Source of the DNA: Sediminibacter sp. Hel_I_10
Lineage (GTDB): Bacteria > Bacteroidota > Bacteroidia > Flavobacteriales > Flavobacteriaceae
Direction of reading: 5' to 3'
Assembly: GCF_000688335.1 (NCBI RefSeq)
Contig: NZ_JHZX01000001.1
Location: 868,001-932,000, forward strand
DNA: 64,000 nt
The notes under the pieces are model-generated. The model saw only the letters and a program-made list of their open reading frames with translations, made no database searches and was not told where the DNA came from. A program made the position numbers and the translations under genes. This document shows, one piece after another, positions 4,988 through 40,385 of this stretch (positions are counted from its first letter, which is position 1; every line of letters begins with the position of its first letter).

Positions 4988-5025
4988 CAATCGGTTGTAT
5001 TTTTAATTTAAAGTATGTATATTTA
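4988..5025 (+). promoter_or_regulatory. PUL operator overlapping a promoter, upstream of the glycan-binding protein gene
   Basis: CAATCGGTTG occupies 4988-4997. It is an imperfect palindrome with a central CG, a layout seen in many LacI-family operators. Its TTG (4995-4997) also serves as a -33 element: after exactly 20 bases comes TATATTTA (5018-5025), close to the Bacteroidota -7 consensus TAnnTTTG. Transcription would begin near 5032, leaving a leader of about 165 bases before the gene at 5198. The same arrangement recurs upstream of the GH95 gene. The regulator itself is not in the window. Confidence 0.65.
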
Positions 5026-5197
5026 CGTTAAATGCTTTTTTTGGTCGTATGATTATCAATACGGTAAAATTACAATTACTTAAATAATTCAGCGATAATA
5101 TTTGGTTTTGATCATTTAAATCAATTTAGCTCTGAAATATCATTAAATCATTTTTTTAAAACACTAGTATTTTATAATTTAATTAAACAATAAAAAT

Positions 5198-6232
5198 ATG
5201 TTAAAAGCTTTAAGATTAGTAGGTGCATTTTTAGCTGTTTTCGCAATTAGCTCTTTAGTAAGCTGTGAAGATGATTCAGATTTTGTCCCGGTAGTTATCA
5301 ACAGTGTTTCTCCTGAAGAGCTATTTGTTGGTGAAGAGGTAATTCTACAAGGCGAAAATTTCAACTCAGTTTTATTTGTGTTTGTGGATAATGACCAGTT
5401 TCCTTATGAGCTGGATGGAAATACTATTACATTTATAGCACCTACCACCGGAGGCGCCGGAGAACGAACGCTGACACTAGTGATGGCAGATGGTTACATC
5501 GTTACTGAAGAAATCAACTTGAATATAAGACCAATCCCTATTATACAAGGCTTATCGACCAATGCTGCTCAAGAAGGAGAAGAAGTTACTCTAAGAGGAC
5601 TATCTTTTGACAATCTTCAAAACGTAAGAATAGGTGACATAGACGCAAATGTTGTTTCATCCACGGCAACAGAACTAGTCATAACGGTGCCTTCTGGACT
5701 TACCATAAACGAAGCAAGTAACATCACAGTCGTAACAGATGGTGGTGAAGCCGTAGCACCAGGGAAATTTTGGATAAGTGATAATCTACTTCTTAATGGA
5801 GGACTCGAAGCTGGAGATGGTGATGAGTTTGTAAATTGGTCAAAATTCAATGGAGCAGATTTAATGACTGCTACAACTGAAGCTGAAGAGGCGTTTTTTG
5901 GAAGATCTTTACGTGCTGTTGGATTTGGAGGTGATGCATGGAGAACACAGATAGCTAGTGCCGCAACTGCCTTAGAAGTTGATGCTAGTTACACACTGTC
6001 AATGTTAATAAAAGCACAACAAGGCACTCCTGGAAACGGCGGGAATATGAGATTTTCAACCACGCCCGAGGCCCTTTACAGTGCTAATTATGAAATCACT
6101 ACAGAATGGCAACAAATTGAGTGGACATTTACAGCTAACACTAATCCAGCAAGTGTTGTGTTAGACCTTGGGGTTACAGAAAATGCAGTATATTTTATTG
6201 ACAACATCACATTAGTACCTACCTTAGATTAG
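5198..6232 (+). CDS. Surface glycan-binding lipoprotein with IPT/TIG and CBM4/9-like domains
   Basis: This is probably the SusE-position binding protein that holds xylan at the surface next to SusCD. The N-terminus ends in a lipobox LVSC followed by EDDSD, a strong acidic export tag. Residues about 30-110 and 112-192 read as two IPT/TIG immunoglobulin-like domains (each beginning with a PVVINSVSPEE- or PIPIIQGLS-type strand and containing VTL/VIL..G..F). The C-terminal 145 residues begin LLNGGLEAGDGD and finish VYFIDNITLVPTLD, the pattern of carbohydrate-binding modules of the CBM4/9/16 type common on xylanases. It has no catalytic residues. It has its own operator-controlled promoter and a terminator just downstream, so it can be expressed separately from susCD. 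Confidence 0.88.
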   Translation: MLKALRLVGAFLAVFAISSLVSCEDDSDFVPVVINSVSPEELFVGEEVILQGENFNSVLFVFVDNDQFPYELDGNTITFIAPTTGGAGERTLTLVMADGYIVTEEINLNIRPIPIIQGLSTNAAQEGEEVTLRGLSFDNLQNVRIGDIDANVVSSTATELVITVPSGLTINEASNITVVTDGGEAVAPGKFWISDNLLLNGGLEAGDGDEFVNWSKFNGADLMTATTEAEEAFFGRSLRAVGFGGDAWRTQIASAATALEVDASYTLSMLIKAQQGTPGNGGNMRFSTTPEALYSANYEITTEWQQIEWTFTANTNPASVVLDLGVTENAVYFIDNITLVPTLD

Positions 6233-6300
6233 TTTTAAAATAGGCGACATTACATATATATGGTATCAGTTTAGTACTGGCACTAATTGATTAAAATAAT

Positions 6301-6327: not shown

Positions 6328-6355
6328 TATTTTGGTATATAATTAAACTATAGAA

Positions 6356-15030: not shown

Positions 15031-15079
15031 GAAAAATAATTAAAAAAAGCATTATTCACAACATTTGTGCAACCGATTT
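15031..15079 (-). promoter_or_regulatory. Operator-like site and promoter for the GH10 gene
   Basis: On the minus strand AAATCGGTTG (15079-15070) matches the PUL operator at 9 of 10 bases. Just downstream, TTG (15061-15059) is separated by 20 bases from TATTTTTC (15038-15031), close to the -7 consensus TAnnTTTG. Transcription would start near 15025, about 115 bases before the GH10 start codon. Here the operator lies just upstream of, not within, the -33 element. Confidence 0.5.
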
Positions 15080-15383: not shown

Positions 15384-15393
15384 CAATCGGTTG
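15384..15393. promoter_or_regulatory. Perfect copy of the PUL operator upstream of the susD relic
   Basis: CAATCGGTTG, identical to the sites at 4988 and 40376. The -7 box expected 20 bases downstream is poorly preserved (TATCCTAA at 15414), so the promoter may have decayed together with the gene it served. It could still influence the haloperoxidase operon, whose first start is at 15972. Confidence 0.55.
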
Positions 15394-15971: not shown

Positions 15972-17441
15972 ATGAAAACATCATTTTCTTTTCTAATTGT
16001 CATTTTAATTCTTTTCGGGTGTAAAAACAATCAAGCTCAAAAGAATCAAGATTCCCTAAAGCTAACAGAACCTAGGGGTGTTGAAAATATTGCCTATAAA
16101 TGGGGACATATGGCATTAGTGGCTCAAGCTAACGATACCCAAAAATTCAAACCAAGGCCTACAGTAACCTCTCGTTATTTGGGATTGATATTCGTTTCTG
16201 TTTTTGATGCTTGGTCAATATATGATGAAAAAGCCATTCCTGTATATCTTGAGGGTGTGGATAAAAGATCATTAAAAGAACAAACGCTTAAGAATAAAGA
16301 AATAGCTATTAGCTACGCCGCGTTTAGAACCTTAAATGAATATTACTCATCAGACAAAGAGTTATTCGCTAATTTTATGAGAGAATTAGGACTGGACCCA
16401 AATAATCAATCATTAGATCCTGCTACTCCTGAGGGAATTGGTAATTTAGCTGCAAAAGCAGTTATTGAAGCCCGAAAGGGAGATGGCTCAAATCAGTATG
16501 GTGAAGAAGAAGGATCTAATGGAAAGCCATATTTCAATTATGTGAAATACGCTCCTGTTAATTCAGTGGATGAAAATATAGATCCAAACCGTTGGCAACC
16601 CAAAAATTTTTCGGATGGAAAAGGAGGTCAATTTGCGCCTGGATGTCTAACGCCTTTTTGGGATAAGGTAGACCCCATAGCCTTAAAATCTGGAGATCAA
16701 TTTCGACCAGGTCCACCTCCCATGATAGGTTCTAAACAGCTGGAAATTGAAGTTAAGGAACTTATTGATCTGCAAGCCAACTTAACTGATCACCAGAAGG
16801 CATTGGTTGAATTCATGAGAGATGGCCCCCAATCCGTCCAACAAGCTGGTCACTGGTTGAAATTTGCCCAAGATGTGTCTCGCAGAGATAATCACAAACT
16901 TGATGAAGATGTTAAAATGTATTTCTATAATCAAATTGTTGCGATGGATGCTTTTATTGCTTCTTGGGATTCAAAAATGTATTATGACTTTGCAAGACCC
17001 TATGCACTGGTTCATGAATATTACGGTGGAGAAAAAATAAAGGCATGGGGTGGAGTCGGAAAAGGCATGGTGGAAATGGATGGAAGCCAATGGCGGCCCT
17101 ATTCACCAGATACATTCTTATGTCCACCATTTCCAAGTTATACTTCTGGTCACAGTACTATTAGTGGAGCCTGTGCAGAAGCCTTAAGACTGTGGACGGG
17201 AAGCGACAAATTTGGTTCGGAAGTTCAATTGGTTGCTGGAGCAATGACCGAGCCTGATAATTTGGGGGACACCATCACATTAGAATTTCCAACATTTACA
17301 AAAACAGCGGAAATGGCAGGTATGTCTCGGGTTTTAGGCGGTTATCACATTCAAGCAGATAACGTTGCTGGATTGGAATTGGGTAGAAATGTAGCGAACG
17401 AAGCATGGACATTTTATAAATTACATGTTGGTGAATTATAA
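15972..17441 (+). CDS. Vanadium-dependent haloperoxidase-like lipoprotein (PAP2 superfamily)
   Basis: This enzyme belongs to the family using a vanadate cofactor and hydrogen peroxide to oxidise halides, or to related phosphatases with the same pocket. The signal peptide ends LFGC, a lipobox, so it is exported and anchored. The complete vanadate/phosphate-binding set is present: Lys335-x6-Arg342-Pro, PSYTSGH with His394, and Ser452-Arg453-x5-His459. The length (489 residues) fits the bacterial haloperoxidase-like group. It heads a three-gene run with an SGNH esterase 67 bp downstream and an aldo/keto reductase. A haloperoxidase is not a standard part of xylan PULs. Whether it halogenates, dephosphorylates or does something else cannot be told from sequence; the fold assignment is firm. 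Confidence 0.88.
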   Translation: MKTSFSFLIVILILFGCKNNQAQKNQDSLKLTEPRGVENIAYKWGHMALVAQANDTQKFKPRPTVTSRYLGLIFVSVFDAWSIYDEKAIPVYLEGVDKRSLKEQTLKNKEIAISYAAFRTLNEYYSSDKELFANFMRELGLDPNNQSLDPATPEGIGNLAAKAVIEARKGDGSNQYGEEEGSNGKPYFNYVKYAPVNSVDENIDPNRWQPKNFSDGKGGQFAPGCLTPFWDKVDPIALKSGDQFRPGPPPMIGSKQLEIEVKELIDLQANLTDHQKALVEFMRDGPQSVQQAGHWLKFAQDVSRRDNHKLDEDVKMYFYNQIVAMDAFIASWDSKMYYDFARPYALVHEYYGGEKIKAWGGVGKGMVEMDGSQWRPYSPDTFLCPPFPSYTSGHSTISGACAEALRLWTGSDKFGSEVQLVAGAMTEPDNLGDTITLEFPTFTKTAEMAGMSRVLGGYHIQADNVAGLELGRNVANEAWTFYKLHVGEL

Positions 17442-17507
17442 CTGCGCAAGTAGTTATAATTCATTTTTAAACCATTATAATCACGTTTTTTAATTAAAAA
17501 TCAATCA

Positions 17508-18428
17508 ATGACATATTATTTAAAACTGCTGCTCATCCTTGGTGTTCTAATTCCTTCCTTTGCCATAAGCCAGCAAAAGGCCAAAGATACTATCAAAGTT
17601 TTTTACCTTGGAGGACAATCGAATATGGATGGCTATGGATACAATTCTGATTTACCTCCATCGTTAAACAAAGAATTCAAAGATGTCTTTATCTTTCACG
17701 GGAATTCCGTTCCAGATGAACAAGAAAATGGAGGATTGGGGAAATGGGAAACATTAAAACCAGGACATGGCACTGACTTTACATTGAATTCTGATAAAAA
17801 TAAGCTCTCCAATCGGTTCGGTATTGAATTATCATTTGCAAAAAAATTACAGGAGTTATATCCAAATCAAAAATTCGCCTTTATAAAATATTCCAGAGGT
17901 GGTACTTCCATCGATACGCTTGCCGCTGGTCCATTTGGGTCATGGGATGTGGATTACAAAGGCACCAATGGAATCAACCAATATGACCATTTCTTGACGA
18001 CACTGCAAACAGCACTAAGTACGAATGACATCGATGGCGACGGCAAAGAAGATCTTCTGATTCCTTCTGGAATTCTCTGGATGCAAGGAGAGAGTGATGC
18101 AGCATACACAGAACAAATTGCCAACAATTATTATAATCATCTCAAACGTCTAATGGATTTGATGCGCGCTAACTTCCACTCTGATGATTTACCTGTAGTC
18201 ATAGGAAAAATATCAGATTCTTGGAATGACAAGGATGGCAAGGTTTGGGATTATGGTGAACTGGTTCAATATGCACAGGAAAAATATGTGAAAACTGATA
18301 AAAATGCTGCAATAGTGCGTAGCACCAGATATTATAAGTATTCAGACCGGTGGCATTATGATAGTGAGGGCTATATCGATTTAGGAGAAAAATTTGCAGA
18401 AGCTATATTTCATTTACAAAAGAAATAA
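17508..18428 (+). CDS. SGNH carbohydrate esterase (SASA/CE6-like), probable acetyl-xylan esterase
   Basis: This enzyme probably removes acetyl groups from xylan or its oligosaccharides. It has a signal peptide (hydrophobic residues 4-19, cleavage before QQK). The nucleophile Ser38 sits in the GGQSNM block of the sialate-O-acetylesterase (SASA, DUF303) family; the oxyanion block WMQGESDA follows near residue 200, and the C-terminal DRWHYDSEGY supplies the catalytic His and Asp. The 306-residue size suits a single-domain enzyme. The gene follows the haloperoxidase by 67 bp and precedes the aldo/keto reductase by 45 bp. A related domain forms the N-terminus of the large esterase fusion at 19464. 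Substrate is inferred from context. Confidence 0.85.
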   Translation: MTYYLKLLLILGVLIPSFAISQQKAKDTIKVFYLGGQSNMDGYGYNSDLPPSLNKEFKDVFIFHGNSVPDEQENGGLGKWETLKPGHGTDFTLNSDKNKLSNRFGIELSFAKKLQELYPNQKFAFIKYSRGGTSIDTLAAGPFGSWDVDYKGTNGINQYDHFLTTLQTALSTNDIDGDGKEDLLIPSGILWMQGESDAAYTEQIANNYYNHLKRLMDLMRANFHSDDLPVVIGKISDSWNDKDGKVWDYGELVQYAQEKYVKTDKNAAIVRSTRYYKYSDRWHYDSEGYIDLGEKFAEAIFHLQKK

Positions 18429-18472
18429 ATAGCGCGCTATAAATATATCATACTAAAAACAAATATAAAAAC

Positions 18473-19456: not shown

Positions 19457-19463
19457 AGTAGTG

Positions 19464-22208
<2,745 letters not shown>

Positions 22209-22223
22209 TCAGAATAAACGAGA

Positions 22224-23969: not shown

Positions 23970-23994
23970 TTTATTTCTATTTATTTTTCGTGTT

Positions 23995-25344: not shown

Positions 25345-25352
25345 AGTTATCT

Positions 25353-26708: not shown

Positions 26709-26713
26709 ATTTA

Positions 26714-28669
26714 TTAATTCGTGATTACAAATCCTCCATTTGATTGTATGGTTATTGAAAGTTCTCCATTTTTAGCAATTGAAATCTCATCCATGAAAGT
26801 GCTTTTATTTTTGTCATCGTTATAAACATTTATTTTACTTCCTGCCAACATTGGAAGATTCAACTTTAATTTTTTGGCGGAAGTTTCCGCATTGACGCCA
26901 GCGATGTACCATTTTTCGCCATGTCTACGAGCCACAACACTGTATTTTCCGGGATAGCCATCAATGAAAACGGTTTCATCCCAAGTGGTTGGAAGATTTC
27001 TTAAAAAATCGAGTTGATATTTTGGAACGTCTTCCAAGTTGTTCGGTGTTAATCCGAAAATCTGAACTGGGTTTTGATACAAGACACTGGTCGCCAATTG
27101 AAATGCATTCGAGGTTAATCGCTCTTGACCCTTTTCGTTGCCTTTGTTCAGAAATGTATTTAACAGTACACCGCCATATTCCATGCTCGCAACCGAATTC
27201 CGAATAAATGGATGCAAGGATGCGTAAAATGCTTCCTTGTCGCGTGCATCTTGGGTAAAAATTAACATCTCCGAAGCGATGACGGCTTCACTTCCGACAA
27301 AATTCGGGTACATACGTTCCCAACCGCGAGGGAGTGTGGCGCCGTGAAAAATAATCATCAGTCCATAATCATTCGCATCGGATAGAATGTCTTCATACAA
27401 ACGCATGGTATCTTGCTTATCGCCACCAAAAAAATCAACTTTCAATCCTTTTACACCTGCTTCCTTGAGCCATTTCATTTCTTTTTTTCTGGCGATGGAG
27501 GTATTCATCTTACTGATTGGCGTCATAAACGTATCATTGGTCACACCGTTGGAATTATACCAAAGAAACACATCCACACCTTTCGATTTAGCATATTGAA
27601 TCAACTCTTTCATTTTATCATAACCAATATCCCTATCCCACCAAGCATCGATTAAAATGTATTCAAAATCCATGGCAGCGGCCAAGTCGATATATGTTTT
27701 TTGGTCCTCATAATTCATACTATTGTCTTGCCAGACAATCCAACTCCATGTGCCACGTCCATATTTATACTCTTGCGATGGCTCATATAGTGGCTCCACC
27801 ACGCTATAAGAAATGGTCGTTTCTACAATAGGTTTTAGCGTTTCGCCAACTGTAATCGTTCGCCATGGCGTGACTCCCGGAAGACCAATTTGAGCGCCCG
27901 TGCTTCCAAAACCATTGTTATTTTTCATATCGGGATACGCAACGCTAAAAACACCATCCTCAAAGCTGCTTAAGTGAGACCCGCAATACGCACTGGAAAC
28001 GCCCGTTTCTGACAACAATGCCCAACCATTTTCTCCAATTCGAAAAAGTCCAGGGAAGACATATCCGGTTTCAGAAGTATTTGTTTCCATAGCAACATCT
28101 GCAGTATAACCACTTTCATAACTTGGAGCGGTACGAGCAAATCCGGTCATGGAACCCATCATTGGCGAAAGAAAACTCGTTGTGTTCGTTGGAAATCGAT
28201 ACCCCGTAAGCTCTTTTTCAACCACACAAGCCATGGTTTTATCCCAAATTGACAATTCGTATCTAAAAGCGATGTCATTATTACTAACTTGAAAAACGAT
28301 GGACAACTGTTTTTTATCTGAATTTTCGAGCGTAAACTTTAAGGTGTTGGCTTGATACTTAATTGACGATTGTTTTATTTTTTCCTGCTCAAAATTCTTT
28401 TCAACGGTGTCTTTGGAAGAGGCTACAAACCCTAAATTTTTAGTGAAGTCACCTTCATTGGTTATTAATCCTAAAGGCGAATTTTCAAGGATTGGTTGAT
28501 TGTTATAAGTGACCTTATAGATAGCGTTTCCATTGTCAACAGAAACCTTCACTTGTAATTTTCCATCAGGACTTATGACTTCAGCATTTTGTGAAATGAC
28601 TGCTGATGACATCAATAGGAAACCTATAACCAGATGTTTTTTCATGCTTGTAAAAAATTCCTTCTTCAT
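26714..28669 (-). CDS. GH97 alpha-glycosidase, retaining (alpha-galactosidase-like) type
   Basis: A calcium-dependent exo-glycosidase of family GH97, with an N-terminal beta-supersandwich (about residues 28-290), a central (beta/alpha)8 barrel (about 300-560) and a C-terminal beta domain. The segment [12 protein letters not shown] offers Asp412 as nucleophile and GSEAVIASE offers Glu461 as acid/base, the arrangement of the retaining alpha-galactosidase branch and not of the inverting SusB alpha-glucosidases. The start ATG overlaps the GH127 stop in ATGA, implying translational coupling; ATG at codon 9 is an alternative with a cleaner signal peptide (SSAVISQN). In a xylan PUL it could remove alpha-galactose from side chains, which is an inference. 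Confidence 0.9.
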
Positions 28670-31065
28670 TCTAAATTTGCTTTCTTGGTTAAACGGACAT
28701 GATAAATCTCGCTGGTACTACTATTCGGCTGTGCTTGAAAACGAACCCTGATTTTATCCTTTCCTTGTATCATCGCATTTGGAATAGGATATTCTGTTTC
28801 GATAAACTGACTGATATTGCTATGATTGGACGTATCTACGGATGCCAATTTTTCATCATCAATATAAATATCAAATTTTTTGGTGCCCCAATAAAATTCC
28901 CAATAGCGAAGTATCAATACAAGGTCGGTAGCAGATTGGGTGGACATTAAATAACTAAAATTACCGCCATCTCTGGCCGCTCTCCAAAACTCATCTTGTG
29001 AATTACCCGAAAAGGAATTGGAAGTTTCCATATAATGGTCACTTTCGGGTTGTTGCTCGCCAGTGCCCACAAAATCGACCGTACGTTTTTCGAGCTCTAA
29101 CTTTTTCGTTTCGATAGTCGCCAAGGAATCCACATAACTTTTGTAACCTGAATTGGTCAATGACAACCAATACATCATATAGCGCGAATCATGAATTTTA
29201 TAAAAAGGCTTCAAATTAGTAGCCAGCGGATTTTGCATCTCGACATTCAACTTAAAATTTAAAGGGTTGCCTTTTATAGGCTCTAATTTTTCAGCAATAT
29301 GCTGCATATCGTCTTCCACCAAAATCGGAGCTTTGTTCAATGCTAAACGTTCGCCACCCGGATACTGTCCAAAACGACTGTCATCTGCAATCAAGCCTTT
29401 TAAATCTTGGGTTCCTGTTTCTGCTCCCAATAAAATCGGTCCGTGCAAAAACGCAATGTATTGCGGCACATTTGGAATTTGCTCCACCGTATTCTGCATT
29501 GGCAACATGAGTTTGACGACATCGCCTTTTTTCCAGTTCCTGTTAATGCTGATGTAAGAAGACGGTTTGTTTGTGTAATCAACGTTTTTACCATTCACTG
29601 AAATTTTTAAAGCACCTTCCTTAACCCAATTCGGATAGCGAAGCATTAAGTTGAAATTTGCGGTTCCTTCGGTTATGGTCAAGGTCGTTTGTTCTTCATT
29701 AGGAAAATTAGTTTCCTGTTTTAATGTGATGCCTTTGTCTTTCCAATCTAATTCTGAAGCGATAAAAAGATTCAAATACAAGAAATCTTTCGAATGGGTA
29801 TAAATAAATTGATTGTATTTCCCATGGTTTTCCATTCCCGTCCCGACACAACACCACATGGCTTCGTTAGGTGCGGAATACACGCGATAATGGCGTGGAC
29901 GTGCAGAGGTAAAATAGACATAGCCACCATGTTCTGGATGTTGGGTAGACAGAATATGATTGTATAAAGTCCGTTCGTAATAATCAGCGTATTTAGCTTC
30001 TGGATGTACGCGGAACAAATCTTCCGTCAGCTTCAACATGTTATAAGAATTACAGGATTCTGGTCCGTCATCTTCAGTCACATAATCAATGCTTGCCGCC
30101 TTGCTCGGGAAATGTTCTTTTCTGCTATTTCCACCAAAGGCCAAACTGCGATTGTTGACGACAGTTTCCCAGAAAAAACGTCCGGCATTGTTATATTTTT
30201 CGTTGTTATCCAACTCGGCAATTCTTTCAAAACCAACAATCTTTGGGATGATGGTATTTGCGTGCTTATTGTCGAGATGGTCAATGCCTTCTGAAAGTGG
30301 CTCCAAAATCGCTTTATGTGAATAGCGTTTGGCGGCCATCAAATATTTTTCTTCGCCTGTCATTTGGTAGGCATCTGCAAAAACTTCAGGCATACCTCCA
30401 TGTTCCATATTTAACATAGATTCCATCTGTTCGTCGGAAAGTTTTGATGTGATATCAATTCCCCAATCGCAGAATTTCAGAAACATCGTTTTGGCTTCTT
30501 CATTATCAGCATATAACCAAGCATCCCTTAAGCCGGCGTACATTTTATGAAGATTATAAAAAGGTGCCCAAGCTGAATTATATAAGCTGAAATCGCCTTT
30601 TTTGAAGGCTGGCCATAATTTTGCGCTATTGGGAAAACCTCCAGCATAGCCGACTCCCCACTCTGGATGATTGATGGCATTCGCTTCCTGACATTCATTA
30701 ACTTCAGAAATGATGTATTCCATTCGCTTTTTACATGCTTCATTTCCTGTTGCAGCGTAATTTATCGCCATAGCAGACAAATAATGGCCACCAACATGCC
30801 CATCGAGACCTTCCCAATTTGGGTACGAAGGTGCTTTAGGTTCCAGACCGGCTTCTTTTCTGTAAGGAGCCATAAACCTATCCACATCGTATTTCAATAA
30901 GACATCAATATTAAGGTCACGCGCATCTTTAAATGGACCATCCAATAAGGTTACGTCTTCCAAAGGAAACTCGTTGGGATATAATTTTTCCTGCGCTTGA
31001 ATGGAATTCACACCTAGCCAAGAGCTTATTAAAAAGAGTACTATTTTATTCTGAAACTTCATCAT
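28666..31065 (-). CDS. GH127 (DUF1680) beta-L-arabinofuranosidase-like enzyme
   Basis: A secreted exo-enzyme, 799 residues with a signal peptide ending SIQAQE. The fold is the (alpha/alpha)6 barrel of GH127, starting LEDVTLLDGPFKDARD. The zinc-thiolate active site is complete: Glu336 and Cys338 in GPESCNSYN, and the Cys405-Cys406 pair in MWCCVGTGMENH, where the first Cys of the pair corresponds to the known nucleophile. A C-terminal beta-rich extension (about residues 640-799) ends in a galactose-binding-like module. Family members release beta-L-arabinofuranose, but others have different specificities. The gene follows GH3 by 7 bp and is translationally coupled to GH97. A second GH127 gene lies 4 kb upstream in the same run. 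Confidence 0.92.
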   Translation of the reverse strand: MMKFQNKIVLFLISSWLGVNSIQAQEKLYPNEFPLEDVTLLDGPFKDARDLNIDVLLKYDVDRFMAPYRKEAGLEPKAPSYPNWEGLDGHVGGHYLSAMAINYAATGNEACKKRMEYIISEVNECQEANAINHPEWGVGYAGGFPNSAKLWPAFKKGDFSLYNSAWAPFYNLHKMYAGLRDAWLYADNEEAKTMFLKFCDWGIDITSKLSDEQMESMLNMEHGGMPEVFADAYQMTGEEKYLMAAKRYSHKAILEPLSEGIDHLDNKHANTIIPKIVGFERIAELDNNEKYNNAGRFFWETVVNNRSLAFGGNSRKEHFPSKAASIDYVTEDDGPESCNSYNMLKLTEDLFRVHPEAKYADYYERTLYNHILSTQHPEHGGYVYFTSARPRHYRVYSAPNEAMWCCVGTGMENHGKYNQFIYTHSKDFLYLNLFIASELDWKDKGITLKQETNFPNEEQTTLTITEGTANFNLMLRYPNWVKEGALKISVNGKNVDYTNKPSSYISINRNWKKGDVVKLMLPMQNTVEQIPNVPQYIAFLHGPILLGAETGTQDLKGLIADDSRFGQYPGGERLALNKAPILVEDDMQHIAEKLEPIKGNPLNFKLNVEMQNPLATNLKPFYKIHDSRYMMYWLSLTNSGYKSYVDSLATIETKKLELEKRTVDFVGTGEQQPESDHYMETSNSFSGNSQDEFWRAARDGGNFSYLMSTQSATDLVLILRYWEFYWGTKKFDIYIDDEKLASVDTSNHSNISQFIETEYPIPNAMIQGKDKIRVRFQAQPNSSTSEIYHVRLTKKANLE

Positions 31066-31072
31066 TGCGTTT

Positions 31073-33694
31073 TTACTGTATGGTCACTTTCGTCATTTTT
31101 AAATCTTTTGAATCTGAACTGTTTCCATAGAAAACTTCATAGTCGCCTGGCGAAACCCTCATGGCGACAGCATCTGCATCATAAAATTCAAAGGAAGATG
31201 CCGGCAAATCGATAGTTATGGTTTCCGTTTTTCCAGCTTTTACTTCAACACGTTTAAATCCTTTCAATGTTTTAAGTGGACCATCGACATCATTCACTTT
31301 ATGTACATACACTTGAAGGATTTCGGTGCCATCAACCTTACTCGTATTTTTTACTGGAATTTTCATTTGAACCGATTCATCAGTCTTGATAGTCGTTTTA
31401 TTCAAACTTGCAGTACCAATGTTGAATGAGGAATAATTCAATCCGAATCCAAAGGGAAACAAGGCATCCTCCATATAACGGTAGGTGCGGCCTTTCATGG
31501 AATAATCCTCAAAATCGCCCAAAGCATCCGAATTTTTGTAGAAGGTTACAGGAAGTTTTCCGGCAGGATTATAATCGCCAAAAAGTACATCTGCAACGGC
31601 TTGGCCACCAGATTCACCGCCATACCAAGCTTGAAGAATGGCATCACAGCTTTTTGTTTCATCCAATAAGGCAATCGCAGAACCAGAACAATTTACAAAC
31701 ACCACTTTTTTACCAGCATCTTTCAAGGCTTGTAAACATTTTTTCTGAACAGATGGCAATTCGATATTGGTACGGTCGCCACCTTTAAAACCTGGGTAAG
31801 AAACCGGCATTTCCTCGCCTTCCAATAAGGTTGAAAGTCCGCCGACAAAAACAACGGTGTCAATGCCTTCCAATTTTTTAATCAATCCACTAAAATCGAT
31901 GTCAAATTCTTTTCCAAAATCAAATTCCAAATTGGCTTGCCAGTCATTGGACTGTGCAAACAGAATCTCAATGTTATAGGTTTTGCCTGCTTCCACCTTA
32001 AAAGGAAGTCGTCCAGGGATGGTGCGCCAGTTGGTATATTTACTAATGGACTCGCCATTTACCAATAATTCAAACGCTCCAGTCGCTCCTGTTTTGAACA
32101 CTAATGTATCCGTTTCTTTCGCTACAAATTCGCCTTCATATTTAGCTGAAAAGTCCTCCAATTTTACGCCAGTTGCGAATTCATGGTTTCCAGCAGTTGT
32201 CAATTTTAAAGGATTTGTAATTTGGGTTGTGGCAATTACAGGTCCGGTTCTATCAGGGGTATTCCAATAGGTAGCTTTAAAGCCTTTTTTTCCGTCGAAA
32301 CTAATTTCAGGAAAATAACTAGTTGTCACTTTATCATCCACCAAATCACTGGCCTTGTCATAGAACACGCTTCCTTCGGAAACTTTAGATTTAATGCCAT
32401 CGAGAATAGTAATAGTTTGATTCGGGGTACCGTTGTAATTTCCCCAAAGCATTGGCTCGTTATCAGCGTTTGGACCAATGACTGCAATCTTGTTGATTGA
32501 TTTCTTTAAAGGAAGAATGTTATTTTTATTCTGGAGCAGCGTCATTGATTTTCTAGCCATTTCGAGCGCCAACTCCTGATGTTCCTTACTATTTAAGACC
32601 GATGCAGGAATTTGAGCCCAAGGCACAATGGCATCATCGTCCATTTCTCCCAAATCAAAACGACCAATTAAGACACGCTCCAAACTTTTATTGACGTCGG
32701 CTTCTTTTATTAAATCATTGGCAACCGCTTCAGGCAAGGTTTTGAAGGGATAGTTTTCCCAAACACATTCCACATCCGTTCCTGCCAAAACAGCTTTAGC
32801 AGCTGCATGTTCGGCATCAGAAGACACATTATGAGAGGTAAAGAAATCGGTAACGGCACCACAGTCTGACACCACCATATATTCATAACCCCATTCATCA
32901 CGCAGGATGCGTTGCAACAATCTTGTGTTACCACAACAGGGCTCATCATCCAATCGCTGATAGGCACACATCACTTGTCGCACATCAGCATCCTGAACCA
33001 AGGCTTTGAAGGCAGGTAAATAGGTTTCGTATAATTCGCGGGGATTGACATCATTCAAATTAAGTTCGTGTCTGCTCCATTCTGGACCAGAGTGCACCGC
33101 AAAATGTTTAGCACATGCTAATATTTTTCGATATTTGGAATCTGCAGGGCCTTGCAGTCCTTTCACAACAGAAACACCCATCAACGAAGTCAAATAAGGG
33201 TCTTCGCCATAGGTTTCTTGGCCACGACCCCAGCGCGGGTCGCGAAAAATGTTCACATTTGGGGTCCAAACGGATAGACTCAAAAACCGTTTATTTTCGT
33301 TTCCATCTGCAATCCATTGATTGTACTTGGCACGCCCTTCATCAGAAACCGCGTCAAAAACACGATACACCAAATCGTTATCAAAGGAAGCTGCCATGCC
33401 TATCGGTTCCGGAAACACAGTTACGTTATCATTATTTGCATACCCATGAAGTGCCTCACTCCACCAGTTGAATTTCTTTATTCCCAATCTTGGAATGGCA
33501 TCGGATTGGTCGCACATTAAGGTGGCTTTTTCTTCCAGCGTCAAGCGTGAAATCAAATCCTTAGCACGTTCTGCAGAACTCAATTCAGGATTTTGAAACG
33601 GTAATTCTTGTGCGCTTACTTGCAACATTCCAAATAAACAGATGCAAAGCATCCAAATCGTTTTTGTTTCCTGTTTTGTTCTGTTGAAATTCAT
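31073..33694 (-). CDS. GH3 beta-xylosidase with inserted PA14 domain
   Basis: An exo-enzyme releasing xylose (or glucose) from the non-reducing end of oligosaccharides, 873 residues. The signal peptide ends QVSAQE. The N-terminal barrel has the nucleophile Asp277 in YMVVSDCGAV, with the substrate-binding KHF..H motif at about 196-201. The second domain begins IAVIGPNADNE at about residue 405. A PA14 module (about 460-600; FKATYWNTPDRTGP to NLEFDFGKE) is inserted into that domain, and a fibronectin-III-like domain closes the protein (about 780-873). The xylan context, and the SDC motif instead of SDW, favour a beta-xylosidase. It precedes GH127 by 7 bp. Confidence 0.94.
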   Translation of the reverse strand: MNFNRTKQETKTIWMLCICLFGMLQVSAQELPFQNPELSSAERAKDLISRLTLEEKATLMCDQSDAIPRLGIKKFNWWSEALHGYANNDNVTVFPEPIGMAASFDNDLVYRVFDAVSDEGRAKYNQWIADGNENKRFLSLSVWTPNVNIFRDPRWGRGQETYGEDPYLTSLMGVSVVKGLQGPADSKYRKILACAKHFAVHSGPEWSRHELNLNDVNPRELYETYLPAFKALVQDADVRQVMCAYQRLDDEPCCGNTRLLQRILRDEWGYEYMVVSDCGAVTDFFTSHNVSSDAEHAAAKAVLAGTDVECVWENYPFKTLPEAVANDLIKEADVNKSLERVLIGRFDLGEMDDDAIVPWAQIPASVLNSKEHQELALEMARKSMTLLQNKNNILPLKKSINKIAVIGPNADNEPMLWGNYNGTPNQTITILDGIKSKVSEGSVFYDKASDLVDDKVTTSYFPEISFDGKKGFKATYWNTPDRTGPVIATTQITNPLKLTTAGNHEFATGVKLEDFSAKYEGEFVAKETDTLVFKTGATGAFELLVNGESISKYTNWRTIPGRLPFKVEAGKTYNIEILFAQSNDWQANLEFDFGKEFDIDFSGLIKKLEGIDTVVFVGGLSTLLEGEEMPVSYPGFKGGDRTNIELPSVQKKCLQALKDAGKKVVFVNCSGSAIALLDETKSCDAILQAWYGGESGGQAVADVLFGDYNPAGKLPVTFYKNSDALGDFEDYSMKGRTYRYMEDALFPFGFGLNYSSFNIGTASLNKTTIKTDESVQMKIPVKNTSKVDGTEILQVYVHKVNDVDGPLKTLKGFKRVEVKAGKTETITIDLPASSFEFYDADAVAMRVSPGDYEVFYGNSSDSKDLKMTKVTIQ

Positions 33695-33705
33695 ATGCTC
33701 TTTTA

Positions 33706-35277
33706 TTATTGTTTTGAAATCGTATCGCTAATATGGAAATAATCAAAATCGACATAGCCGTCTATATGTTTTGTGGCATAGTTGAACAGTCCAAATCGGT
33801 AGCCCATAAAATGTGGCAGCGTGTAAGGCATGTTGATGGATTCTCCAATAGGTTTCCAAGTTTTCCCATCGAGACTGTAGAAGAATTTCGCTTTGTCAGC
33901 TCTTTCGTTAAAATCGCATTCCGCTTTTAAGTAAATTTTGTTTTGATTTAAAGGAATACTTTGCATTTCTTTTGCTTCGCCTTTTGGCGCTGACATCATG
34001 ACTATTTTTTTCTGGCCGTTTTCAAACTTTACACCCACCAATCCGAATTCTTTCTGCAATAAACAAAGCCCAGCAAAATCGCCTTCCTTCATTTTTGAAA
34101 TATCCAAGAGTGTTGAACCTGTACTTTCTGGACCAATAGTGCGCTGGGTCAACGTATTTTTCGCTTGAACGAACCTGGAATCGATTCGTCCTGTTTTCAA
34201 TCGTAAATAACCTTCGCGTTCTCTGACCGACCAAAGTGAATTATCTGGATTATGGTTCCACTGCCAAACCAGAGGTAAATCCGCTTCTTTCTTCTTGCGT
34301 TTGAAATCATCTGAATGCACAATTCCCGGAATCAGACCTTTGCTTGCTGGTAAATCCAACTGTTGCGGTACTTTGCCATCGTTCCCTATAATCGGCCAGC
34401 CATCTTCCCATGTCACAGGCACCAAATAAGGAATGCGCCCGACCCCTCCATTATCTTTAAATAAATAGGAAAACCATCTGCCGTCCGGCGTATCTATAAG
34501 TCCACCTTGGGCAACTCCCAAGTCTTGCAGACCCACTTTACCTTCCCAAGGACCTGTAATATTATCAGCGCGATGAATAATCACGGTGCGCATGCCACCT
34601 TGTGGCCATGTAATATTGAACAAGTAGTATTTACCGTTGATTTTATAAAGTTGAGAACCTTCCGCACCCAACATAATATTGTCGCCGGCCGGTGCGCTTG
34701 CATTTTCAATAAGTACTTTTTGGGTATCTTCCTTAACGCCTGAAAGGTCGTCTTTCAATTCGATAATATTGAGTTTGCCAGCTCCCCAAACCATATAGGT
34801 TTTTCCATCGTCATCAAAAAATATGGAATGGTCATGGTATGAAGGTTGAAATTCTATGGTTGTCCATGGACCTTTTTCAAGATTTTCAGTCACATAAATG
34901 TGCGTTTTACCTGTGGTTGCAGAAAAGGTGCTCACATAAAATTTTTCATTATGGTAGCGCAGGCAACTCGCCCATGAGCCGCGACCATACATGTTCTTCC
35001 CATTATCTAAATCGAGTTCATCGGAATGTCCAAGCGTATCATACCCATAATTGATAAGTTCCCAATTCACTAAATCGTTCGACTTCATGATAGGCAAGCC
35101 AGGACTCATGTGCATCGTGGTGCTACTCATATAATAGGTGTCGCCAACTCGTAGCATCGATGCATCTGGCACATCGGCATAGATGATGGGGTTTTGAGCT
35201 TTTTTATCTTGCGCGCTTGAAGTAATGCCTATAAAAAAGCTTAAAATCAGTATGCACTTGAAAAGTACGTTCATCAA
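33706..35277 (-). CDS. GH43 beta-xylosidase-like enzyme with C-terminal beta-sandwich
   Basis: An exo-acting xylosidase/arabinofuranosidase, 523 residues, signal peptide ending TSSAQD. The propeller carries Asp38 in DVPDASML, Asp149 in YHDHSIFFDDDG and Glu206 in LGAEGSQLY. Residues about 320-523 are the concanavalin-like domain (PLVWQWNHNPDNSLW, YRFGLFNYA) that shapes the active site of GH43 beta-xylosidases. It differs from the other three GH43 proteins of the operon (YADVPDAS instead of YPDP or ADP), so it belongs to another subfamily. Spacing is 11 bp to GH3 downstream and 27 bp from GH127 upstream. Confidence 0.9.
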   Translation of the reverse strand: MMNVLFKCILILSFFIGITSSAQDKKAQNPIIYADVPDASMLRVGDTYYMSSTTMHMSPGLPIMKSNDLVNWELINYGYDTLGHSDELDLDNGKNMYGRGSWASCLRYHNEKFYVSTFSATTGKTHIYVTENLEKGPWTTIEFQPSYHDHSIFFDDDGKTYMVWGAGKLNIIELKDDLSGVKEDTQKVLIENASAPAGDNIMLGAEGSQLYKINGKYYLFNITWPQGGMRTVIIHRADNITGPWEGKVGLQDLGVAQGGLIDTPDGRWFSYLFKDNGGVGRIPYLVPVTWEDGWPIIGNDGKVPQQLDLPASKGLIPGIVHSDDFKRKKKEADLPLVWQWNHNPDNSLWSVREREGYLRLKTGRIDSRFVQAKNTLTQRTIGPESTGSTLLDISKMKEGDFAGLCLLQKEFGLVGVKFENGQKKIVMMSAPKGEAKEMQSIPLNQNKIYLKAECDFNERADKAKFFYSLDGKTWKPIGESINMPYTLPHFMGYRFGLFNYATKHIDGYVDFDYFHISDTISKQ

Positions 35278-35304
35278 TTTGTATTGTTTTGTATGCTCTA
35301 AAAA

Positions 35305-37620
35305 TTAGTCTTTCAAAATTCGTAATTCGTAAAATCTCGGTGTCGGTTTGTCATTTGTGGAGGACATTTTCACGTTGACAAGTTCGTTGTCGCTCAATTT
35401 TATTCGAATGGTTTTATTTTCTGATGAAATGATTTCTGCAGGTATCTCATTGATAGATATGTCAATGTTCTCTAATGTGATGTCGTCCAATGCTGAAATA
35501 TCCAAAAATTGGCCTTCACGGTTTTTGTTTGATAATTGGTAAGACATGTAACCGCGCGTGCTTCTCCAAAATCGGTCCTCATCATATCCAGAGTAACTTT
35601 TTTCCCCTTTGTATAAATGCCCCACTTCTGGCTGCTGCTCGCCGCAACTCACTTTGTCAACCGTTTTTGCTTCCAAAGCTGCGGCGTCTAATTCTTGCTG
35701 TTTTAAGATGGCCTGTTTCTCTTTATATTCACCGGCACTATAGGTTTGAAAGTACATCTGATAGCGTGCATCATGCACTTCAAAAAATGGTTGAAGCTCC
35801 AAAGAATCCAAACTATAATGAAGGTTTTCAAGCTCTTTTGCTTGAGATAAATAACTGTCTTTATCACCAACTAAGGCATAAGCTTCATCCAACGGAATGT
35901 ATTTTCCGTGAGTCGCATGCCCCATTCGACTATCGTCTGCAAATAATCCGTCTAAATCTTCGGTTGAGGTCTTGGCAGCCAAAACGATAGGACCGTCCAC
36001 AAACGCCACCCAATTGGAACCATCGGGTAAATTTTCTAGATGAGTCGAGGTTTTAAATCTGACGGTAATTTTATCGCCAGACTTCCATTTTCTTTCAATG
36101 CTTCTATACGTCGAAGGCTTGTCATTCATCTTTTGAACCTTTCCATTGACTAAAATTTCAAAATTTTCTGCCCATTCGGGTTGACGAATGTTTACAATGA
36201 ATTTCTGCTTATTTTTTAAATTTAAAATGATTTCTGATTGATTTTCATACGGAAATTTCGTGCTTTGGGTTAAAGAAATCCCTTTTTCTTCCCAGTTCAA
36301 AGTAGATGGAATAAACAGATTTACAAACACATCATTCTGGTTATGACTATAAATGAGTTCGCTGTATTTGGTGTGATTTTCTAAACCAGAACCCACGCAG
36401 CACCACATACTAGTCTCTGGTTGCGAATAGACGCGATAATGATTGGGACGGATGGGCGTGAAATATACAAATCCGCCTTTTTCGGGAAGCTGGCTCGACA
36501 GAATATGATTGTAAAGCGTGCGCTCGTAAAAATCTAAATAACTCACATCATTATGGTCTAGAAACAAGGCTTTGCTTAAGCGGACCATATTGTAGGAATT
36601 GCAGGTTTCTGGACCCTGATTGGACTTTACCATTCCGCTAAAATCATCCACCGGATTAAAATGTTCAGCAACACTGTTGCCACCAAAAGCAACACTGCGG
36701 GTTTGAGTCACATCTCTCCAGAAAAATTGGACAGCTTCAGCCAATTCCTTGTCATCAGTCAATTCTGCTACTTTTTCATAACCCAACACTTTTGGGATTT
36801 GGGTGTTGGCGTGTAAACCGGTTAGCTTATCTTCTTCATTCAATAAAGGTTCTAAAAAGGCTTTATGAGTTAGTTTTTCGGCGGTTTTTAAATATGTTTC
36901 ATTGTTTGTCATCATGTATAAATCCGCAAAAGATTCATTGATGCCGCCATGCTCCGTTTTTAAAATATTTTGAATTTGTGCTTCGGAAAGCGGTGCAATC
37001 AAATCCACGAACCAATCTCCTAATTTTATGACGATGGATTTCGCCTGTTCACTATCGGTAAAGCGGTAGGCATCTATCAGGCCCGCAAATAGTTTATGAA
37101 TATTATAAAGCGGCACCCAAGTGTTATTCAGTCCAAAACCACTGCCATCGATATCGCCTGTGTGAATACGCTCCCAGAAAACTTTCCCTTCCGGTATTCC
37201 TCCTACATAGCCATTGTCATTTGCGTTTTGGCATCGCTCCAATTCCGAAAGCATATAATCTAGGCGCGTTTTTAATTCCTCATTACCCGTGGACGCATAT
37301 AGCATGGCAAGCGCGGACAAATAATGCCCGGCAATATGGCCGTCCAAACCTATACTTTCCCAATTGCCATAACGCTCATCTTTAACTGGCAAACCAGCGT
37401 CAATTAAATAAGGCGCCAACAATCTGTCGGGCTCCAATTCCAAAATGTAGGTCATATCCACATCTTGGGCATTTTTGAACGGTCCATCCGTTAGTCTTAC
37501 GTCCTGTAAATCGAAGGACTGCATTTGCGAAAAACCAATTGAAGATATTAGGAATGCCAACACAAAACCCATTGATTTTGCGATTGTGAAAATTGAAGTA
37601 TGTATGTTTTGAATCTGCAT
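35305..37620 (-). CDS. GH127 (DUF1680) beta-L-arabinofuranosidase-like enzyme, second copy
   Basis: A second secreted GH127 enzyme, 771 residues, signal peptide ending SSIGFSQ. The active-site set is intact: Glu338 and Cys340 in GPETCNSYN and the Cys407-Cys408 pair in MWCCVGSGLENH. It shares domain order with the other GH127 (DVRLTDGPFKNAQDVD at the start, a C-terminal beta-rich region after about residue 650), but the two differ over most of their length, so they likely cut different linkages. It lies 16 bp downstream of the GH95 gene. Confidence 0.92.
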   Translation of the reverse strand: MQIQNIHTSIFTIAKSMGFVLAFLISSIGFSQMQSFDLQDVRLTDGPFKNAQDVDMTYILELEPDRLLAPYLIDAGLPVKDERYGNWESIGLDGHIAGHYLSALAMLYASTGNEELKTRLDYMLSELERCQNANDNGYVGGIPEGKVFWERIHTGDIDGSGFGLNNTWVPLYNIHKLFAGLIDAYRFTDSEQAKSIVIKLGDWFVDLIAPLSEAQIQNILKTEHGGINESFADLYMMTNNETYLKTAEKLTHKAFLEPLLNEEDKLTGLHANTQIPKVLGYEKVAELTDDKELAEAVQFFWRDVTQTRSVAFGGNSVAEHFNPVDDFSGMVKSNQGPETCNSYNMVRLSKALFLDHNDVSYLDFYERTLYNHILSSQLPEKGGFVYFTPIRPNHYRVYSQPETSMWCCVGSGLENHTKYSELIYSHNQNDVFVNLFIPSTLNWEEKGISLTQSTKFPYENQSEIILNLKNKQKFIVNIRQPEWAENFEILVNGKVQKMNDKPSTYRSIERKWKSGDKITVRFKTSTHLENLPDGSNWVAFVDGPIVLAAKTSTEDLDGLFADDSRMGHATHGKYIPLDEAYALVGDKDSYLSQAKELENLHYSLDSLELQPFFEVHDARYQMYFQTYSAGEYKEKQAILKQQELDAAALEAKTVDKVSCGEQQPEVGHLYKGEKSYSGYDEDRFWRSTRGYMSYQLSNKNREGQFLDISALDDITLENIDISINEIPAEIISSENKTIRIKLSDNELVNVKMSSTNDKPTPRFYELRILKD

Positions 37621-37636
37621 TTGTTTATTGTTATAT

Positions 37637-40102
37637 CTATGATTTTATAATGAATTGGTACGAATTTCCTTTTTCAGTTGGGATATCATACAAAAACGTT
37701 TCTTTTAATTGTAAAGGTCGAATCGTGGATGCTTCCGAAATGATTGGTTCTTTAATTTTTGGCACTACAAAAAATGAATTCGGATTTTCGTCTGAAGCTT
37801 TATTTAATTTATTTCCGGACTCGAACTTCATTTCATTTGGAATTCGCAACCGCAGATTTCCACCAAGATTGGAAGTGATTTTTACTGAAACCAATTCGCC
37901 ATTTTTCCAAATCATGTCTTCGATTGTAAATCCGCCTCTTGTTTTTAAACCAGAAACCATACCATCTTTCAAATTATCTGGAAGCGCAGGAATTAAATGA
38001 ATGGCACCATCGGAGCTTTGCATCAGCATTTCGGTTATTCCAGAGGTACAACCAAAATTCCCATCAATTTGAAATGGCGGATGTGCATCAAATAGATTGT
38101 TATACGTTCCGCCGCCACTTTCGATAGTGCCGACTGGCGATAATTGATTTTGAATCAGTTGATAAGCTTTGTTACCATCTTGCATTTTCGCCCACCAATT
38201 CACTTTCCATCCCATACTCCAACCCGTGGAGATATCGCCTCTTTGTAACAATGTGTTTTTTGCTGCGGCAAAAAGTTTTGGATTTTTGTAGGGCGAAATT
38301 TGATTCGATGGAAACAATCCGTACAAATGCGAAATATGTCGGTGCTTATCCTCTGGGCTATCCACATCGTCTAGCCATTCCTGAAGTTGATTATGTTTAC
38401 CAATCTGCATCGGCGGCAATCGTTGCCTTAAACCTTCCAGTTTTGCAATGAAATCTTTGTCCTTGTTAAGCACTTTGGCAGCTTCAATCGTAGCGCTAAA
38501 CACATCGAACACCAGCTGATTGTCCATGGTAGAACCCGCAGTAATGGAGGCGCCTGGATGTTCTTTGGGTGCGTTTTCAGGAGAATTACCTGGAGCGACC
38601 ACCAACCATTTATTTTTTGGATGTTCGACTAAAAAGTCTACATAAAATTCCGCTGCACCTTTCAGAGAAGGATAAGCGGATTCTAGATAGGTTTTATCGC
38701 CAGTGTATAGATAATGCTCCCATAAATGCTGGCTCAACCAAGCCCCGCCTCCGTTCCAGATGCCCCAAAAGGAACCATCGACAGGGCCCGTAATTCTCCA
38801 AATATCTGTATTGTGATGCGCCACCCAACCTTTTGCCCCATACATCACTTTTGCCGTTTCCTTACCAGTTTCGGAAAGTTCCATGACCATTTTTAAAAGC
38901 GGTTCATGCATTTCTGAAAGACTGGTCTTTTCTGCCGGCCAATAGTTCATCTCAGTATTGATATTGATGGTGTATTTACTATCCCAAGCTGGGTTCATAT
39001 TGCCATTCCAAATGCCTTGCAGATTGGCGGGCTGTCCACCAGGTTGGGATGAAGAGATCAGTAAATAGCGTCCGTATTGGTAATAAAGAGTCAAAAACGA
39101 AGGGTCTGAAACATCCTTAAAGTTCTTAAGTCGTTCATCCGTTGGAAATTTGCTCGCTTCGGTAGAACCTAAATCAAGTTGCACTCGGTAAAAGTATTTT
39201 TGATAGGCAGAGATGTGTTCAGATTTAAGTGTTTCAAAATCCTTGTTGAAGGCTTTGTCCAAATACTCTTTTGCACGCATCTCTTCGTCGCCACTCAAGT
39301 CATTGTAATTGTTGAAGTTGGAGGCAATGGAAACAAATATTATAACAGAATTGGCTTTTTCAATAGCAACCGAGTTGTCCTTTTGTTTTAGGCTTCCGCC
39401 ATCTATTTTTATTTTGGCAAGAGCGTTAAATTCGACCTTCCCTTCAACGCCTTCATGGTCACTAGTCGTTCCCCAAAGTGAAAGTTCATTATCTCCATTA
39501 ACTTTAATCTCTTGTTTATTATGCTGGCTAGTAAATACCGTCGAAAATGATATCTTGTTTGGAGTATCCGCTGAAAGCCTTATAGCCATTACCCTATCAG
39601 CAAAGGATGTGAACGCTTCGCGGGTATAGGTGACGCCATCAAGCTTATAGCTCGTTTTGGTAATAGCTTTTTCAATATCTAGTTCTCGGTAATAATCAGA
39701 ATAGTCAGTATGACCATTAAACGTCAATTCCAAACTCCCAACGGGTTGAAACTTTTGGCCGTGAGACTTTTTTGTGATTATTTTTTCATTGGCTAAATTT
39801 TCAGCCGCTTGGTATTGGCCGTCAAAAATCAGCTGTCTCACTTCTGGCATAGCTGCCAAAGCATTAGGATTGTCATTCCGATTTGGGCTTCCGCTCCACA
39901 CTGTATGCTCATTCAATTGAAAGATTTCCTTTTCAACATTACCATAGACCATGGCTGCCTGAAATCCATTCCCAATGGGGAGGGCATTTTCCCAAACCGT
40001 TCCAGAAGGCTTATTGTACCACAGTTTTAATTCCTTGCTATCTTGGCAGAAAGCCTGAATAACGGAAATTAAACAAATAAAAACACATGCGAATTTAGCC
40101 AT
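37637..40102 (-). CDS. GH95 alpha-L-fucosidase/alpha-L-galactosidase-like enzyme
   Basis: The first gene of the long minus-strand run. GH95 enzymes release terminal alpha-L-fucose or alpha-L-galactose; the latter decorates some complex cereal xylans and would suit this locus, but the choice is an inference. Family motifs are NKPSGTVWENALPIGNG near the N-terminus, INTEMNYWPAE at about residue 350 with the catalytic-loop Asn, APGNSPENA, and QIDGNFGCTSGITEML with the conserved Asp. The preferred start is the ATG that encodes MAKFACVF, about 10 codons inside the longest frame (which opens with TTG at 40132). The signal peptide ends IQAFCQD; the residues before this Cys do not form a good lipobox. 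An operator-promoter lies about 250 bp upstream. Confidence 0.9.
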   Translation of the reverse strand: MAKFACVFICLISVIQAFCQDSKELKLWYNKPSGTVWENALPIGNGFQAAMVYGNVEKEIFQLNEHTVWSGSPNRNDNPNALAAMPEVRQLIFDGQYQAAENLANEKIITKKSHGQKFQPVGSLELTFNGHTDYSDYYRELDIEKAITKTSYKLDGVTYTREAFTSFADRVMAIRLSADTPNKISFSTVFTSQHNKQEIKVNGDNELSLWGTTSDHEGVEGKVEFNALAKIKIDGGSLKQKDNSVAIEKANSVIIFVSIASNFNNYNDLSGDEEMRAKEYLDKAFNKDFETLKSEHISAYQKYFYRVQLDLGSTEASKFPTDERLKNFKDVSDPSFLTLYYQYGRYLLISSSQPGGQPANLQGIWNGNMNPAWDSKYTININTEMNYWPAEKTSLSEMHEPLLKMVMELSETGKETAKVMYGAKGWVAHHNTDIWRITGPVDGSFWGIWNGGGAWLSQHLWEHYLYTGDKTYLESAYPSLKGAAEFYVDFLVEHPKNKWLVVAPGNSPENAPKEHPGASITAGSTMDNQLVFDVFSATIEAAKVLNKDKDFIAKLEGLRQRLPPMQIGKHNQLQEWLDDVDSPEDKHRHISHLYGLFPSNQISPYKNPKLFAAAKNTLLQRGDISTGWSMGWKVNWWAKMQDGNKAYQLIQNQLSPVGTIESGGGTYNNLFDAHPPFQIDGNFGCTSGITEMLMQSSDGAIHLIPALPDNLKDGMVSGLKTRGGFTIEDMIWKNGELVSVKITSNLGGNLRLRIPNEMKFESGNKLNKASDENPNSFFVVPKIKEPIISEASTIRPLQLKETFLYDIPTEKGNSYQFIIKS

Positions 40103-40347
40103 TGATACGTATACTCTATTTAATAATAACAATCAATAAAAATAAGTGTAATTAGAACACTTTTAAGATAAGTTATAATTTCACTTCAAAATCTGAAACC
40201 GACTCAAATTACATTGAAAACGTAATGAAAATCAAGTTAGAGATAAAACAACTATCCTGATCATTTAAAGATTGTATACAAACGCGTTATTACGACTAAA
40301 AAAGGTGTATTGACATTTAATCATAATAACTATGAAAAGCACAAAAA

Positions 40348-40385
40348 CAAATGTAATAAATACACTTAATATAAGCAATCGGTTG
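40348..40385 (-). promoter_or_regulatory. PUL operator overlapping the promoter of the ten-gene exo-enzyme run
   Basis: CAATCGGTTG lies at 40376-40385. Read on the minus strand, the TTG at 40378-40376 is followed after exactly 20 bases by TACATTTG (40355-40348), a perfect match to the Bacteroidota -7 consensus TAnnTTTG. Geometry is identical to the site at 4988. Transcription should start near 40341, giving a leader of about 240 bases before the GH95 start. A repressor bound here would cover the -33 element. Confidence 0.75.

Follow-up and report, generated by a model that had tools for sequence, protein, structure and literature searches.

A candidate LacI-type repressor with CAAYCGRTTG operators that may overlap the -33 element across a glucuronoarabinoxylan locus of Sediminibacter

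Passages of a review present hybrid two-component systems (HTCS), extracytoplasmic function (ECF) regulators and catabolite repression as the canonical control of hemicellulases; the LacI-family repressors AraR and XylR are also named there, for arabinanase and xylanase genes (PMC10766802). Passages of another source place known beta-1,4-xylan systems, those of Bacteroides ovatus, Prevotella bryantii and Xanthomonas campestris, under LacI-family or HTCS regulators (PMC12125979), and in Bacteroides the LacI regulators KdgR, UxaR, UxuR and UxmR are linked, in the passages available, to uronate pathways (PMC3878776). For a flavobacterial xylan polysaccharide utilization locus (PUL), that of Gramella flava JLT2011, part of its report describes an annotated lacI gene and induction by xylan (PMC5306329). 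Outside the Bacteroidota, the sux carbohydrate utilization (CUT) locus of Xanthomonas combines the LacI-type repressor SuxR with an inner-membrane major facilitator superfamily (MFS) transporter and a TonB-dependent receptor, and excerpts of that report describe over-expression of the receptor gene in a suxR mutant in the absence of sucrose (PMC1790865). Here we describe a 64,000-nucleotide stretch of Sediminibacter sp. Hel_I_10 (the window; bases 868001-932000 of a 4,106,053-base contig, with 97 kb examined around the locus) that carries much of a glucuronoarabinoxylan PUL, together with a LacI-family gene of the same locus, whose product, P0001, is the candidate repressor of a set of promoters bearing the operator CAAYCGRTTG. 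The gene, the sites, their geometry, their conservation and their co-occurrence were all computed.

P0001 is like the LacI/GalR repressors CcpA and PurR in domain order, in near full-length alignment and in an even operator palindrome with central CG, but it falls below the NCBIfam cut-offs, and both the operator CAAYCGRTTG and the target set are its own. With SuxR it shares the LacI type and a locus with MFS and TonB-type receptor genes, whereas SuxR concerns sucrose in Xanthomonas (passages of PMC1790865). The likeness to LacI-family control of xylan and xylanase genes is one of regulator family, the passages of PMC12125979 and PMC10766802 giving no operator, orthology or geometry. PULs under HTCS or ECF control have the same hemicellulose-degrading gene sets and SusC/D-type uptake as this locus, but they sense at the membrane or in the periplasm and work by activation (as passages of PMC10766802 put it), whereas no HTCS or ECF gene was found among the scanned open reading frames (ORFs) of the locus, the HTCS search being confined to these. 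KdgR, UxaR, UxuR and UxmR place LacI regulators in the Bacteroidota too, although for uronate pathways rather than for a SusC/D xylan locus (passages of PMC3878776). The Gramella flava PUL is alike in being a flavobacterial xylan PUL with lacI; the passages of PMC5306329 contain no operator or repressor test. Among the matches listed, the literature on the topic did not describe the regulon in titles or opening abstracts, and none of the titles listed for the motif string concerned bacterial gene regulation. The principle is thus known; the regulon, the motif and the promoter geometry did not turn up among those matches.

The initial annotation, made from the window alone, had proposed one LacI-like repressor acting at operators that double as the -33 element, and had stated that no regulator lies in the window. 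For the window this stands, since none of the 34 ORFs scanned was reported with a DNA-binding family (of six further rows, two repeat an ORF with a different start and four are nested within genes). The look upstream of susC that it had recommended, for which 33 kb were fetched and scanned, revealed a LacI-family gene of the same locus at genome positions 849349-850380, 17.6-18.7 kb upstream. Profile searches gave seven PF00356 matches in the genome, one of which, at 849370, falls in the xylan locus. The encoded P0001 has an N-terminal LacI helix-turn-helix (HTH; PF00356, 40.2 bits, cut-off 27) and a sugar-binding domain (PF13377, 103 bits, cut-off 26.5), and aligns to CcpA and PurR over nearly the full length; 18 NCBIfam models match it, none at cut-off, the best being CytR with 215.4 bits (cut-off 436). 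P0001 has every LacI/GalR-family feature that could be tested. It is of PurR length, with no room for a LacI-type tetramer helix. CAAYCGRTTG, found before GH67 and lacI of the orthologs, is an even palindrome with central CG, the kind of operator that most LacI proteins bind according to passages of PMC4052901. Because the search pattern dictates the core, a comparison of 62 sites is informative for the flanks alone; ahead of the core stand mostly a C and then a G or A.

The 4.1-Mb genome has 14 occurrences of CAAYCGRTTG. Five of them (856171, 867160, 872988, 883384 and 908376) belong to the xylan locus and all lie between genes, whereas eight of the other nine are inside ORFs and one (509943, L002) is outside. 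The non-coding part of the 97 kb amounts to 7,261 bases, and for five exact sites in it the Poisson P is ~1e-11, a post hoc value that depends on the choice of ORFs, which were called mechanically. Two of the five lie upstream of the window, before GH67 (856171) and before susC (867160). The three within the window had been noted from the beginning as non-coding copies of CAATCGGTTG, and all three indeed lie outside the ORFs taken as genes: at 4988..4997 (plus strand), at 15384..15393 (plus strand) and, as CAACCGATTG, at 40376..40385 (minus strand). The two imperfect copies, a 9/10 match ahead of the GH10 gene (AAATCGGTTG, 15070..15079, minus strand) and a weaker 8/10 match of uncertain function 56 bp upstream of the 4988 site (TAATCGGTTA, 4932..4941, plus strand), were likewise confirmed. 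With a promoter box added (CAAYCGRTTG-N19-21-TAnnTTT), the genome-wide scan that had been suggested as a check found only the locus sites 867160, 872988 and 908376, in four hits, one being the opposite strand of 867160, vs one hit for the reversed-pattern control. With at most one mismatch allowed, the window contained 8 matches vs 4.27 expected, and because 10 of 100 shuffles reach 8 this count was rejected as evidence; the case rests on the genome and the relatives.

Orthologs of lacI, defined by E ≤ 1e-95, were found in 33 of 397 sampled genomes of Flavobacteriaceae, our own included; the sequences of these relatives are not independent. Upstream of GH67 in lacI-positive genomes, an exact CAAYCGRTTG was present in 26 of 31 cases (25/30 without our own genome) and a site with at most one mismatch in 29 of 31, whereas none of 20 comparison GH67 genes had a match, even with one mismatch (Fisher 7e-10, uncorrected for kinship and a guide only). 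The comparison genes were 19 from 18 ortholog-free genomes plus an unlinked second copy of the lacI-positive G131, without which the count is 0/19. Of 55 GH67 rows 51 were used, leaving out the second copy of G328 and weak rows of G228, G343 and G399; G115 and G180 are lacI-positive with no GH67 row, and in G317 and G321, both within the 31, lacI and GH67 are on different contigs. Because the GH67 motif tracks the lacI ortholog in this way, the link between P0001 and the CAAYCGRTTG sites is strong, and P0001 would be their cognate regulator.

The surrounding loci point the same way. Seven named ortholog genomes (four Flavobacterium at 69-71% identity, two Maribacter at 59% and Neptunitalea at 51%) all have exact sites outside called ORFs, 21 in total, with an operator before lacI and before GH67 in each of the seven. 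It stands directly before susC in all three Flavobacterium loci that reach this gene; Neptunitalea is an exception, with none directly before susC and one before the SASA gene upstream of it. In 20-kb loci fetched for 20 of the 32 other lacI-positive genomes, we found 33 exact sites in 31,367 intergenic bases vs 3 in 368,453 called-ORF bases, i.e., a more than 100-fold higher density between genes, compared to 0 and 2, respectively, for the reversed pattern. At least one exact site was present in 17 of these 20 loci and none in L129, L131 and L132, while the three sites in called ORFs (L128, L135 and L136), near lacI and within ~110 bases of the ORF starts, may reflect over-long ORF calls.

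The TTG of the operator is read against a -33 consensus of TTTG/TTG. Four of the five own sites combine this TTG with a TAnnTTTG-type -7 box at N19-20, as would suit a Bacteroidota sigma-A promoter; the -7 consensus was taken from passages of PMC9723704. The best box scores at this distance were 5/6 letters for GH67 (TATCTTCG at N19), 6/6 for susC (TACATTTG at N20), 5/6 for the IPT/CBM gene (TATATTTA, 5018..5025, plus strand, N20), 3/6 for the VCPO-like gene and 6/6 for GH95 (TACATTTG, 40355..40348, minus strand, N20), and four sites with at least 5/6 letters had a probability of 5e-5 in 20,000 single-letter shuffles, which, like the other shuffles here, did not keep dinucleotides. The geometry reported as identical at the 4988 and 40376 promoters thus holds, with exactly 20 bases between TTG and box at these two of the three exact sites of the window; over the whole locus it has to be widened to N19 or N20 at four of five exact sites, two of them outside the window.

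Across 27 loci of relatives, 21 of 81 oriented sites (both directions counted for divergent genes) overlap a -33 element, compared to 3.9% in shuffles (maximum 11% in 1000). The overlap concerned 7/11 sites before susC, 7/21 before GH67, 2/3 before GH43, 2/2 before GH10, 2/19 before GH3 and 1/11 before other genes. In G178, whose lacI is 90% identical, the GH67, susC, IPT/CBM and GH95 promoters all keep operator and box at N19 or N20; the pair is also kept before susC and the IPT/CBM gene in G175, before GH67 and GH95 in G136, before GH67 and susC in G266, before GH67 and a susC-like gene in G249 and before susC in G082. The overlap thus recurs in other genera, chiefly before susC and GH67, as a promoter-specific design of the main structural promoters and not as a rule for every site.

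From these data we infer binding, repression, the role of the TTG as the -33 element and the nature of the ligand. P0001 would bind CAAYCGRTTG at five or more promoters of one locus, serving GH67-SDR-uxuA-GH115-GH10-transporter-GH43, susCD, the IPT/CBM protein gene, GH10 and the enzyme run that starts with GH95. At four of the five exact sites the 3' TTG of the operator would be the -33 element, 19-20 bases before the -7 box, so a dimer on the operator would cover the -33 contact and compete with RNA polymerase for the same DNA; a LacI dimer covering the -33 position would block the polymerase. Low uninduced expression would let some xylan be cut, and the oligosaccharides would pass through SusCD and then MFS_2 into the cytoplasm, where xylo-oligosaccharides, perhaps glucuronylated, would bind the repressor and release it, turning on the genes for binding, import and degradation together. 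The GH43 adjoining MFS_2 has no evident signal peptide (read by eye), which suggests that oligosaccharides do reach the cytoplasm. GH67 and GH115 begin with signal-like stretches (also read by eye), so removal of glucuronic acid may take place before the cytoplasm is reached, and the ligand may be a plain xylo-oligosaccharide. In this genome no operator stands before the xylose operon, which favours an oligosaccharide rather than xylose as ligand.

We consider a LacI-type repressor of CAAYCGRTTG operators across the PUL, with the operator overlapping the -33 element, to be the best explanation of these sequence patterns, with a probability of about 0.86. The earlier proposal of such a repressor is supported by the lacI gene in the locus, the GH67 co-occurrence and the 19-20 spacing. 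Several observations weigh against it. Most oriented sites of relatives (all but 21 of 81) lack the overlap; it is absent from all 14 lacI promoters of relatives, from GH67 of G082 and from the nearest susC site of G136; and the relatives' profile has a second bump at spacing N10 (11%), which we put down, as a supposition, to similar lacI upstream regions in close relatives. In this genome no operator precedes lacI itself, whereas all seven named relatives have one. The 15384 site is without a good -7 box at N19-20, and no counterpart of it was found in G178. Finally, G131 and G328, of one genus, have no operator before GH67, with a recognition helix like the others.

That the sites act without any regulator, as a -33-like promoter element or a chance repeat, has next to no credit with us. 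The one-mismatch count of the window is within reach of shuffles, and genus mates without the ortholog carry 2-11 copies of CAATCGGTTG per genome, both of which fit this idea, but the presence of the full palindrome before GH67 goes with that of the lacI ortholog, which already contradicts it, and the excess of exact sites between genes over called ORFs in the ortholog loci argues against it further. That the GntR-type protein of the xylose operon (L015:6077-7063) binds the sites instead of P0001 is improbable. Its gene is in the same region, but no site with up to one mismatch occurs between this gene and the next one upstream, the GH67 motif tracks lacI, and most LacI proteins recognise even palindromes with a central CG, according to passages of PMC4052901. 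An unlikely reading, although a less remote one than these two, is that the LacI protein is an activator or dual regulator here. Some sites are far upstream or boxless at N19-20 (4932, 15384 and the upstream members of the site pairs before susC in Flavobacterium), and in passages of PMC4052901 the LacI protein PckR is predicted to act both ways; against this, the site overlies the -33 position at the own susC, GH67, IPT/CBM and GH95 promoters, so that a dimer bound there would stand in the way of the polymerase.

Some further observations concern the operators and their regulator. Relatives have paired exact operators before susC, spaced 310 bp (L024:15336/15646), 313 bp (L025:14937/15250), 316 bp (L027:17121/17437) and 321 bp (L130:6705/7026), and in the window 314 bp separate the sites 15070 and 15384. 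Looping of DNA between the susC operator pairs was considered but not taken up, since their spacings cover a full helical turn and P0001, being of PurR length, has no room for a LacI-type tetramer helix. The lacI orthologs of G131 and G328 (L158 and L170) are ~70% identical to ours with the usual recognition helix, and a one-mismatch site stands before xylB instead (L131:4176 and L132:4123). None of 22 genus mates (G001-G022) has GH67 or a close lacI ortholog, yet in G175, from another genus, the 7TMR-HD/thiolase/NlpC/TPR/gyrA flank recurs and the PUL sits to that same side of it, at a distance of 17 called ORFs. Acquisition of the locus by horizontal transfer was considered and not adopted, as the G175 arrangement fits loss as well.

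The gene content is that of a glucuronoarabinoxylan locus. It has a susC/susD pair together with glycoside hydrolases for one glycan, from families GH10, GH43, GH67, GH115, GH3, GH95, GH97 and GH127, and a GH30/XynC-like protein whose family scores are all below cut-off. Upstream of the window, the order is transaldolase, transketolase, xylA, xylB, the GntR regulator and a split GH10, followed by an FG-GAP/ASPIC gene, a DUF255 gene, the LacI-family gene, an Sde182-like gene, SASA and GH3, and then by GH67-SDR-UxuA-GH115-GH10-MFS_2-GH43 and susC up to the window. The GntR-type protein carries a periplasmic-binding-like domain, its gene runs with xylB, xylA, transketolase and transaldolase, and it probably acts as a distinct regulator for xylose, through a site of its own. 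The split GH10 extends over two overlapping frames (L015:7224-8006 and 7868-8395; profile positions 2-215 and 212-310) and looks like a frameshifted gene.

The window begins with the 3' part of susC and susD (1..4496, plus strand), whose operator lies outside it at window position -840. The gene for an IPT/TIG and CBM_4_9 protein (5198..6232, plus strand) is the first behind the 4988 operator, which also precedes the orthologous IPT/CBM gene in G178 and G175. Three large FG-GAP/UnbV-ASPIC genes are associated with the locus (window 6356-11925 and L015:8470-11808). On the minus strand follow the GH30/XynC-like gene (12001-13329) and the GH10 gene (13760-14908), putative targets of the 15070 site, the 10-mer of which is identical in the alignable region of G178. 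A VCPO/PAP2-like gene, a SASA esterase and an aldo/keto reductase (15972..19456, plus strand) may be targets of the 15384 site; the first of these (15972-17441) encodes a protein with a lipoprotein-like start and is also present in G178 (82%). The remaining enzymes (GH95, GH127, GH43, GH3, GH127, GH97, three GH43 and an esterase/SASA; 19464..40132, minus strand) form a putative operon behind the 40376 operator, co-transcription being suggested by gene spacing, and this operator likewise stands before GH95 in G178 and G136. A short tandem repeat of GAAGT units lies beside it at ~40430-40450.

What stands out here is that a SusC/D locus would be under local LacI control: the regulon is new and its kind is known. 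The analysis offers a regulator, an operator and a promoter geometry that can be put to the test for the xylan loci of a large bacterial family, where PUL control is mostly discussed as HTCS or ECF activation, and a recurring operator that doubles as a core promoter element would be a ready design for inducible promoters in Flavobacteriaceae. On balance, we lean slightly towards the broader view that a widespread, self-contained LacI operator cassette governs the glucuronoxylan PULs of Flavobacteriaceae, in which the operator would sit in the -33 element of the main structural promoters, the genes for surface capture would answer to a cytoplasmic sensor, and regulator, operators and enzymes would come and go together between close relatives.

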